The notes under the pieces are model-generated. The model made no database searches. It worked only from the letters and a program-made list of their open reading frames with translations, and was not told where the DNA came from. The position numbers and the translations under genes were made by a program. Below, piece by piece: positions 54,978-57,542 of a stretch of 64,000 bases of DNA. The number at the start of each line of letters is the position of its first letter. The first letter of the stretch is position 1. Source of the stretch: Polynucleobacter sp. AM-26B4. Lineage in GTDB: Bacteria > Pseudomonadota > Gammaproteobacteria > Burkholderiales > Burkholderiaceae. The stretch is from NCBI RefSeq assembly GCF_018882285.1, contig NZ_JACVOT010000001.1, positions 248,001 through 312,000 of the forward strand. Reading direction: 5' to 3'.

Positions 54978-56288
54978 CTAATTGACAAAGGGTAATTGAT
55001 CCCAATGACTGGTGTACTTAGGCGAAACATTCTCTGACTTCATTTTCCAAGCTTGGTCAGTGCCTGTCGCAGCTACTCGCAAGGCCTGGGCTCCATAACG
55101 TGTATTAATTGAATCTAGAGTTTTCATGAGGCGCACTGATTTTCCTTTGACCTGATGATCTTCAAACAATGAAGACTGAACCAGTGGCTTATCAGTCATC
55201 AAACCCAACATCACGCCAGCCTTTTTATATCTGAAGCCTTTTTTATAAATCTCTTTCAGTCCTTTGATGGCCATTTCAGTCAAGACCAAGGTGTCATCCG
55301 TTGGATGCACTAAAGGTATTTGAATACTTTGACTGTACTGAGGTTCATTTCTCATGAATACATTGGTCTGAACAAAGACGCTGATTGAACTGGTCAATGA
55401 CTCTTGCTCTCTTAATTTTTCGGCGGCTCTGGCTGTGTGTGTCGCAACTGATTCAGCCAATTCTTCCAAACTGAGAACTAATTTGCCAAAACTTCTAGAA
55501 GCGATGATTTGTTGCTTGGGTGGGGCCACCTCCTCCAGAGCCAAGCAAGAGAGTCCACGTAATTCATAACAAAGTCTTTCAATCACTACCCCAAATTGCA
55601 ATCTCATCATTTGCGGAGATACTTGTACTAGATCAAGTACGGTGTGTATGCCCATGCCCTCTAAACGTTTGGCAATTTTTCGACCAACACCCCAAACTTC
55701 AGCTGCAGATACCTCACTCATCCATTGATAGAGTTCTTGTTTGGGCATATTGCTTAAATCACACACACCATTGAATGATGGATTCTTTTTGGCCAAGTGA
55801 TTGGCAAACTTGGCCAAAGTTTTGCTGGGTGCAATGCCCACGCAAACAGGCAAACCAGTCCACTGCTTGATGCGCTGTTTGATCTCAGCGCCTAAATGCG
55901 TGGGAGATTCGTGAGCATTTAAAACAGATTCAATTTGCAGGAAGCTTTCATCCACACTGTAGACCTCTAGCTTGGGCGTGAACTGTCGCAGTATCTCCAC
56001 CACGCGCTGACTCATGTCGTGATACAGGGTGTAATTAGATGAACAAGCCAGGATGCCATGCTGCTTGGCCAAGTCTTTCATCTGAAACCAAGGCGTGCCC
56101 ATTTTGACACCCAAGGCTTTGACTTCAGCACTGCGTGCCACAGCACAACCATCATTATTGGACAACACCACCATGGGTGTTTTTTCTAACTGAGGGGCAA
56201 AGACTCGTTCACAAGACACATAGAAATTATTCACATCCACCAAAGCAAACAGTGGTGCATGGGTGGAATGTTGACTGGGGGAGCTCAT
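54978..56288 (-). CDS. umuC: DNA polymerase V catalytic subunit (Y family)
   Basis: Error-prone translesion polymerase. [16 protein letters not shown] carries the first catalytic aspartate; [21 protein letters not shown] and [11 protein letters not shown], with the Asp-Glu pair, are the UmuC signatures. It has 436 residues. The ATG at 56288 starts two bases after the umuD stop; a TTG 6 bases earlier is less likely. It is co-transcribed with umuD under a LexA box. Confidence 0.95.
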
Positions 56289-56290
56289 GA

Positions 56291-56776
56291 TCAAACTCGA
56301 GATGAACTACTGGAATAACGTCTGACAACACCAATGACCACGCCCCATATTTGTAGCTCATGGCCTTCACTGAATGTGATGTTGGGATAGTCAGGGTTTT
56401 CTGGACGCAATTCAATGAGTCCTTTGTATTTGTACAAACGCTTGATCGTGTACTCACCATTGACCACCGCCACCACAATGTCTTTGTGTTTTGGCTTTAA
56501 GGCTCGATCAACGACCACCTTATCGCCATGATGGATGCCAGCCACAATCATTGATTCACCTCTCACAGTAAACATGAAAGTGGCTGGCTTATTCTGTATC
56601 AGATAGCTATTCAGATCCAATCCATCAGCCGCATAATCAGCCGCAGGACTCGGAAATCCTGCTGATAATGGGTGCATGATGAGTGGCGTCTCATTCACCG
56701 ATAAATCACCGGACAAGCCTTGAGGCACTTGGCTCAAGCTGGTTTGATGAAGAAGTTGATTGATCGATTGAGTCAT
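56291..56776 (-). CDS. umuD: UmuD-type SOS self-cleaving protease subunit
   Basis: Accessory subunit of DNA polymerase V; RecA-triggered self-cleavage activates it. The 161 residues contain the Ala39-Gly40 cleavage site ([11 protein letters not shown]), the catalytic Ser75 ([10 protein letters not shown]) and Lys112 (YTIKRLY). LexA box CTG-N10-CAG lies 7 bases upstream of the start codon, with candidate -35 TTGCTG (56822-56827) and -10 TATACT (56798-56803). The leader would be very short and lacks a clear ribosome site. Confidence 0.95.
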
Positions 56777-56783
56777 AATAATA

Positions 56784-56799
56784 CTGTATATTTATACAG
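56784..56799. promoter_or_regulatory. LexA box (SOS operator)
   Basis: CTGTATATTTATACAG is a perfect CTG-N10-CAG palindrome, extending to TACTGTATA...TATACAGTA. It overlaps the probable -10 region of umuD and lies 62 bases before the divergent HNH gene. SOS repression of umuDC is expected; control of the HNH gene is likely but not shown. Confidence 0.95.
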
Positions 56800-56860
56800 T
56801 ATATATGAATTAAGTCGGATTCAGCAAATTTGTTATTCCAACATTAAGATAGACCCCATC

Positions 56861-57220
56861 ATGTTGGGGAAAATCCGTCAAAAACTACTGGCCAATACGT
56901 TTCCGAAAGAAGTTTCGGCAGCAGAACTGATCTGCCCTATTTGCGACCGCCCGATTCCAAGCTCGCAAAAAGATGCGCATCACTTTGTTCCAAAATCAAA
57001 GGGTGGAAAGGCCACCGAGTATTTGCATCGTATTTGTCACAGGCAAATACATGCTTTGTTCACAGAAACACAATTGGCCAGAGAATTGAATACAGCCGAA
57101 GCCATCAAAGAGAAAGCTGAGATGCAAAAGTTCATTGCTTGGGTGCAATCCAAGCCCAATGATTTTTACCAACGCAGCTCAAAGAGCCAGCAGTTTAAAA
57201 ACGCCAAAAACCTGATCTAG
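56861..57220 (+). CDS. HNH-type endonuclease domain protein
   Basis: A 119-residue protein with a zinc-finger HNH nuclease domain. Cys25 and Cys28 (CPIC) start the finger; DAHHFVPKSKGGKATEYLHRICHRQIHALF holds His40-His41, Cys59, His60 and His64. The start at 56861 (MLGKIRQKLL) was chosen because upstream in-frame codons cross the LexA box. The family includes small HNH proteins of unknown role. It shares its promoter region with umuDC, so SOS induction is probable. Confidence 0.82.
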   Translation: MLGKIRQKLLANTFPKEVSAAELICPICDRPIPSSQKDAHHFVPKSKGGKATEYLHRICHRQIHALFTETQLARELNTAEAIKEKAEMQKFIAWVQSKPNDFYQRSSKSQQFKNAKNLI

Positions 57221-57542
57221 GGAAATAAATTTCTCGGTATTTCTGCTCCTGCTTAAGAGATGTCACCAAGAAGCGCACGATTTCATCATGCTTGGTAGAG
57301 CAATCTAACTTTCGTTGTGCAATGCGCTCTTTGGCAGCAGCAACAATCACCTCGTTCAAATCAAAGGCCCTGCTATCCAAACCTGTTTGAGCTCCCAAAC
57401 AAAGTTGGAAGTCACTCATGGTGTCAATCCGTTGCGTGATCTGCTGTGGCGTCAAAGAGGCACAACCACCAAGCAAGACCAATGCCAGACAAGCAATTTG
57501 CTTACTCAATCGATGCATGGAATATTGTTTGAACATGGTCAT
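57195..57542 (-). CDS. small unknown lipoprotein
   Basis: A 115-residue protein. The N-terminal LSKQIACLALVLLGGCASL is a lipoprotein signal with lipobox LGGC. The mature part is polar and helical (LTPQQITQRIDTMSDFQLCLGAQTG, then a KERIAQRKLDC stretch). Two cysteines may form a disulfide bond. The 3' end overlaps the HNH gene by 26 bases. A start 8 codons in (MHRLSKQ) is possible. No family assigned. Confidence 0.72.
   Translation of the reverse strand: MTMFKQYSMHRLSKQIACLALVLLGGCASLTPQQITQRIDTMSDFQLCLGAQTGLDSRAFDLNEVIVAAAKERIAQRKLDCSTKHDEIVRFLVTSLKQEQKYREIYFPRSGFWRF

Follow-up and report, generated by a model that had tools for sequence, protein, structure and literature searches.

A LexA-type box between umuDC and a divergent HlpB-like HNH gene in one clade of Polynucleobacter

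Introduction

LexA bound at its operator represses transcription, and DNA damage triggers the self-cleavage of LexA. In LexA-controlled umuDC operons of the E. coli type, the box lies 5' of umuD, and umuD precedes umuC. To our knowledge, little is known about the function of HlpB-type stand-alone HNH proteins outside Bacillus. Two such small proteins are described in PMC3765158. HlpB (YisB) of Bacillus subtilis bound DNA with no cleavage seen, and cells survive without it only if addAB is missing as well. Gme HNHE, which also stands alone, weakly nicks acid-damaged DNA with a preference for AP sites. In Prochlorococcus, an HNH gene, PMM1528, is reported to be raised by UV (PMC2921402).

A damage-response operator between a umuD gene and a small divergent gene has been described in Acinetobacter, where ddrR and umuDAb share a common operator with mapped transcription starts (PMC7273328). 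The repressor in this system is UmuDAb instead of LexA, and DdrR, described as a corepressor found only in Acinetobacter, is not an HNH protein. Here, we analysed a 64,000-nucleotide stretch of the Polynucleobacter sp. AM-26B4 genome (the window), in which umuDC and a gene for a small HNH protein diverge from a LexA-type box. Our literature search, made by titles and the beginnings of abstracts and mostly among openly readable papers, found nothing on a umuDC-HNH pairing or on a link between HNH and photolyase genes.

Results

The box upstream of umuD

The window carries umuD and umuC in the order of the E. coli-type operon, with a LexA box 5' of umuD (Table 1). The earlier note had placed this box between umuD and the HNH gene, and it is indeed there, 7 bases from the umuD start and 61 bases from the HNH ATG.

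Table 1. Features of the umuDC-HNH locus and of the second gene preceded by the same box
Feature	Position	Strand	Basis and remarks
umuC, 436 aa, pol V catalytic subunit	54978-56288	-	NCBIfam NF002955, 480.3 bits (cut-off 431)
umuD, 161 aa, pol V autoproteolytic subunit	56291-56776	-	Pfam Peptidase_S24, 105.2 bits; NCBIfam NF007621, 150.7 bits (cut-off 110)
LexA box CTGTATATTTATACAG	56784-56799	.	7-bp perfect arms; predicted umuDC operator, perhaps acting on HNH also
HNH-proximal conserved element ATTAAGATA	56843-56851	+	candidate -10 or leader element of HNH (putative function)
HNH gene, 119 aa, stand-alone, HlpB-like	56861-57220	+	Pfam HNH; HlpB model; alignments A1 and A2
Small lipoprotein-like gene (by eye), convergent	57195-57542	-	shares 26 bases with the 3' end of HNH; outside the unit
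40-aa frame	L011:1564-1686 (own genome C2:1476722-)		box at L011:1501-1516; AAAGGAG upstream; hydrophobic N-terminal half

The 20-mer TACTGTATATTTATACAGTA fits 19 of the 20 positions of the E. coli-type LexA site, scored against what we take to be its consensus, and no other place in the window exceeds 15/20. The pattern CTGT-N8-ACAG occurs in the window only at the box, a count that is not significant by itself since 0.84 occurrences are expected there by chance. Genome-wide, the same loose pattern was dropped as evidence because its 11 occurrences hardly exceed the 8 of the reversed control pattern. The genome encodes lexA (216.8 bits; cut-off 110.95), which carries a box of weaker fit (14/20) directly upstream, and a box matching at 18/20 positions precedes recA (named by eye). 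Boxes at both genes are also what E. coli-type LexA-controlled systems have.

UmuC was matched in 141 of 151 Polynucleobacter genomes, 127 of them above the cut-off. When the best 30 umuDC loci across the genus were examined, all 30 had an exact CTGTN8ACAG beginning 22-32 bp 5' of the extrapolated umuD start; the HNH gene was present in 7 and missing from 23. We assigned the box to umuDC because it is kept upstream of umuD in all of these loci, including those 23. Judged by its sequence and conserved position, CTGTATATTTATACAG is the SOS operator of umuDC, of the ordinary type. The loose genome-wide counts and the modest lexA box would fit a chance match, with neither gene under SOS control, but the 19/20 fit, the conserved position at umuD and the boxes at lexA and recA make this explanation hardly credible.

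With a LexA-type box at its promoter and lexA in the genome, umuDC is placed in the SOS regulon. Toward umuD, the related loci L293, L294, L303 and L306 show by eye TTGACA-N16-TATAAA or TACATA, whose second hexamer falls within the box, and the first hexamer appears decayed in the window's sequence (also by eye). Bound to the box, LexA would keep the umuD promoter shut until DNA damage induces LexA to cleave itself. Compared with E. coli-type umuDC, no essential difference was seen, the divergent HNH neighbour being a clade-specific extra.

The HNH gene and its protein

Homologues beginning M(L/I/T)G(K/R)I set the start of the HNH gene at its ATG, position 56720 marking only how far the reading frame stays open on its 5' side. 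The HNH nuclease domain (PF01844) passes the gathering cut-off narrowly (23.4 versus 21.4 bits) and is the single family above the Pfam cut-off in the protein. The HlpB model NF058586 is matched with 63 bits (E 2.7e-17), below its equivalog cut-off of 130; residues 24-113 align with positions 8-97 of the 99-position model, which is nearly all of it, and the 30 members of alignment A2 all match the same model. By these scores the protein is a relative of HlpB, not filed as HlpB itself. Residues C25, C28, H40, H41, H56, C59, H60 and H64 are invariant in alignments A1 and A2. The protein is a putative nuclease, no cleavage having been seen with HlpB itself.

An AlphaFold model of moderate confidence (pLDDT 74.1) was compared with known structures. 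Foldseek gave no PDB match at E <= 0.001. As far as a moderate model can be compared, the top structural neighbour among the folds listed was Gme HNHE (Gmet_0936, PDB 4h9d; Z 4.9, rmsd 3.0 over 59 residues), which Foldseek scored at E 0.21. Gme HNHE was absent among the sequence matches of the HNH protein up to E 1, and its four-cysteine zinc site differs from that of the window's protein, where a by-eye alignment puts His56 at one of the cysteine positions.

The HNH gene was matched in 106 of the 151 genus genomes (108 loci) and had no match in 45, among them 33 of the 117 most complete. PF12705, AddB-like by frame length, was matched in 150/151. Because the HNH gene is unmatched in 45 genomes while PF12705 is nearly always matched, the gene is probably non-essential in Polynucleobacter, whereas HlpB of B. 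subtilis is essential unless addAB is deleted. Whether HNH presence tracks that of AddAB proved uninformative, since PF12705 is found in all but one genome. The nearest relative by HNH protein is that of P. cosmopolitanus (92% identity), which has the same gene pair and box (strain MWH-MoIso2, L163). A FemAB_like gene is also among the neighbours of HNH in the window.

For the small HNH nuclease, the earlier note had considered roles in repair, in mobile elements or in colicin-like release. HNH domains are common in mobile elements and colicins, and PHROG matches to HNH families do exist, though weak (best E 0.00097). Nevertheless, matches came from 2 phage records out of 50,697 and from 29 plasmid records out of 72,556, all below 60% identity, and the gene is found in most genomes of the genus. 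The 119-residue protein has a single recognised domain, and no receptor domain, immunity gene or lysis gene was recognised among the neighbours viewed. We therefore rejected both the mobile-element and the bacteriocin readings, and consider it very improbable that HNH is a phage-type nuclease or a toxin of colicin type set free by the SOS response. PADLOC returned only a weak type II restriction match (E 0.0062). Two phage records of uncultured origin and more than 630 kb, LR745206.1 and LR756502.1, encode relatives of the HNH protein that align with some 70% of its length at 57% and 48% identity.

Of the three proposed roles, repair is favoured, given the kinship with HlpB and the photolyase neighbours described below. 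The protein is most likely a repair-associated, HNH-fold protein of HlpB-like type, which would have an accessory part in repair and act on damaged or recombining DNA.

Transcription of the HNH gene

Promoter-like hexamers had been proposed near the box in both directions. This claim found no support, because a consensus promoter scan of positions 56650-56950 returned nothing on either strand; by eye as well, no convincing promoter toward HNH was seen at the box. The scan gave one terminator-like stem, which covers the HNH start (56854-56869, minus strand), with 0.2 such stems expected.

Next to the HNH start, the element ATTAAG[A/G]TA occurs in all 11 upstream regions that were aligned (Table 1). 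It is kept at L053 and L054, two loci lacking umuDC in the flank examined; their genomes (G085 and G029) have UmuC matches that are weak and under the cut-off. It is also kept at L049, where the box is displaced, and at L050, where a gene has been inserted. Because the element persists without umuDC and with the box displaced, a proximal promoter of its own is favoured, and HNH is probably transcribed from a promoter close to its start codon. LexA acting from the box about 60 bp upstream would then have at most a modest influence on HNH. Against this view, the scan gave HNH no consensus promoter, neither a proximal one nor one at the box.

Conservation of the umuDC-HNH pairing

A pairing peculiar to this strain would, by the earlier note, have refuted its idea, and that is not the case. 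A box between divergent umuD and HNH was found in 8 of the 108 genus HNH loci, with a box-HNH gap of 61 bases in seven and of 171 bases, 110 bp further, in L049. In a ninth locus, L050, umuD lies 1.6 kb away with one gene inserted, and no box precedes HNH. In the other 99 loci, umuDC is absent from the flank examined, and the 400 bp upstream contain no exact box. The eight pairs and L050 make up a single clade (support 100/84) in the tree of the HNH proteins. This tree comprises 106 of the 108 rows, two having been removed by the >85 aa length filter, and places L141 on a very long branch. In a set of 80 HNH loci, which largely repeats the genus genomes behind the count of 108, seven shared the box, and L169 had umuD with a gene between.

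The pairing was also looked for beyond the genus. Of 43 HNH loci taken to lie outside it, none was flanked by umuC or umuD, and none had a box in the 300 bp upstream. This sample combines 10 loci assigned by record title from the set of 80 with 33 of 37 matched non-genus genomes, four weak ones (G196, G297, G205 and G252) being omitted; the taxon of L241 is unsure, and the same species may be counted twice. A class-wide sample gave an HNH match in 30 of 323 genomes, many of them weak, down to 23 bits. In 1 of the 29 class loci besides the window's own (L353/L384, genome G814), HNH and a umuD-like gene diverge, separated by an SRAP remnant (17.3 bits, under the 27.1 cut-off). The island also holds a UmuC-like fragment, and SDR-like, DCC1-like and DPRP genes lie 6-9 kb off. 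G814 belongs to the same class and another order, an unrelated lineage. Recurrence in other betaproteobacteria, which the earlier note had suggested checking, was not seen, the pairing being that of one small clade of these freshwater bacteria, and HNH most likely came beside umuDC once, in this clade. The similar arrangement in G814 counts against that explanation.

Genes beyond the pair, the downstream neighbours included, vary among the paired genomes. As the gap is exact in seven of the eight although these surroundings differ, the conserved 61 bp could mean selection for the two genes to stay together. The sharing of one LexA box by HNH and umuDC, as first proposed, holds as geometry in the 8 loci and is unproven as regulation, 99 of the 108 loci having no umuDC or box.

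In its regulatory sense, sharing would mean that LexA at this single box represses both umuD and HNH, so that HNH would be SOS-induced in the clade. The near-symmetric, near-consensus box between divergent starts, the gap and the common operator of ddrR-umuDAb, with its mapped starts, are what such a bidirectional operator would lead one to expect. Against it, no HNH promoter was found at the box, the proximal element is conserved where the box is missing, the box lies farther off in L049 and does not precede HNH in L050, and the 43 loci taken as outside the genus are all without it. Shared repression stays a serious rival because of the constant gap and the Acinetobacter precedent, and we regard it as possible at rather less than an even chance.

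Photolyase-type neighbours of the HNH gene

Elsewhere in the genus, HNH keeps other company. DPRP, a photolyase-related gene, adjoins it in 68 of the 108 loci, mostly divergent and with DUF2805 between, and the photolyase gene phrB lies downstream in 6. Another 25 loci have no photolyase-type or umuDC neighbour in the flank examined, which for some of them is short (281 bp upstream in L083, 196 bp in L112). In loci of like size, photolyase-type genes were found in 19 of 29 genus HNH loci and in 0 of 71 controls, the latter consisting of three sets (0/30, 0/30 and 0/11) and not of matched random loci. Because of this difference, we conclude that the HNH gene has a history beside UV-repair genes. 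Outside the genus, the link was seen in 12 of 43 loci; among like-sized loci it was seen in 7/21 at the level of the order and 2/29 at that of the class, these last two being SDR only. On these neighbourhood counts, the linkage of HNH to photolyase-type genes is strong in the genus and weak beyond it. Both the 25 loci without such neighbours and the weak link outside the genus count against the repair reading.

Most of the DPRP-linked loci have a conserved inverted-repeat element of the AAGTTTA-N-TAAACT type between the divergent genes, 57 of the 68 by a strict pattern. This element, similar to GCAAGTTTAAGACTTATTTACTAAACT, is found in the HNH-DUF2805-DPRP intergenic regions, for example just 5' of position 7187 in L063. 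In appearance it is a candidate operator for the photolyase-type gene.

One explanation that joins both neighbourhoods is that HNH is a dedicated UV-damage repair factor whose regulatory partner has changed, from DPRP, to PhrB elsewhere, and to the LexA operator of umuDC in one clade. The pairing would then have turned HNH from a photolyase-partnered into an SOS-responsive gene. We consider this change of partner doubtful, and the switch to SOS responsiveness that goes with it unlikely to the same degree. Loss of DPRP as the cause of the move beside umuDC was ruled out, as DPRP was matched in 17 of the 17 genomes tested, the window's included (in G063 it is broken by stops).

A separate HNH subclade around L111 (L115, L119 and L125 by label only) has no umuDC or photolyase found nearby. 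In L111, HNH follows HscA-like and ferredoxin-like frames and faces a lysyl-tRNA-synthetase-like frame (names given by eye).

A second gene preceded by the same box

The 16-mer CTGTATATTTATACAG occurs once more in the genome, upstream of a 40-aa open frame (Table 1). This exact box starts 57-95 bp upstream of the frame in 13 of 13 close genus loci (L323-L335, its own included). Among 17 more distant loci of the frame, the box type is present only in L352, L351 having been misread by the scan. A Pfam search of the frame gave no match. The frame is a candidate for an SOS-induced small membrane protein. SidA is known as a division inhibitor, and by analogy the frame perhaps encodes a SidA-like one. 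This gene, with its identical box, may be the less expected SOS gene in the genome.

Discussion

The closest relatives of the two halves of this locus lie in different systems. The umuDC operon agrees with the E. coli type, and the HNH protein resembles HlpB and Gme HNHE in standing alone. The arrangement of the two resembles ddrR-umuDAb, in which a small gene also diverges from a umuD gene with a damage-response operator between; both the repressor and the small protein there are of other kinds, and the likeness, on comparison of the arrangements, is analogy and not kinship.

Altogether, the explanation that we prefer, and hold to be somewhat better than an even bet, is that the box is the operator of umuDC and that HNH would be an HlpB-like repair accessory standing beside it with a promoter of its own. 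The recurrent linkage of HNH to photolyase-type genes, together with its place beside pol V in one clade, suggests the hypothesis that the protein takes part in the processing of UV damage. The DPRP-linked and umuDC-linked loci would be two natural regulatory contexts of the same gene in which this could be compared.
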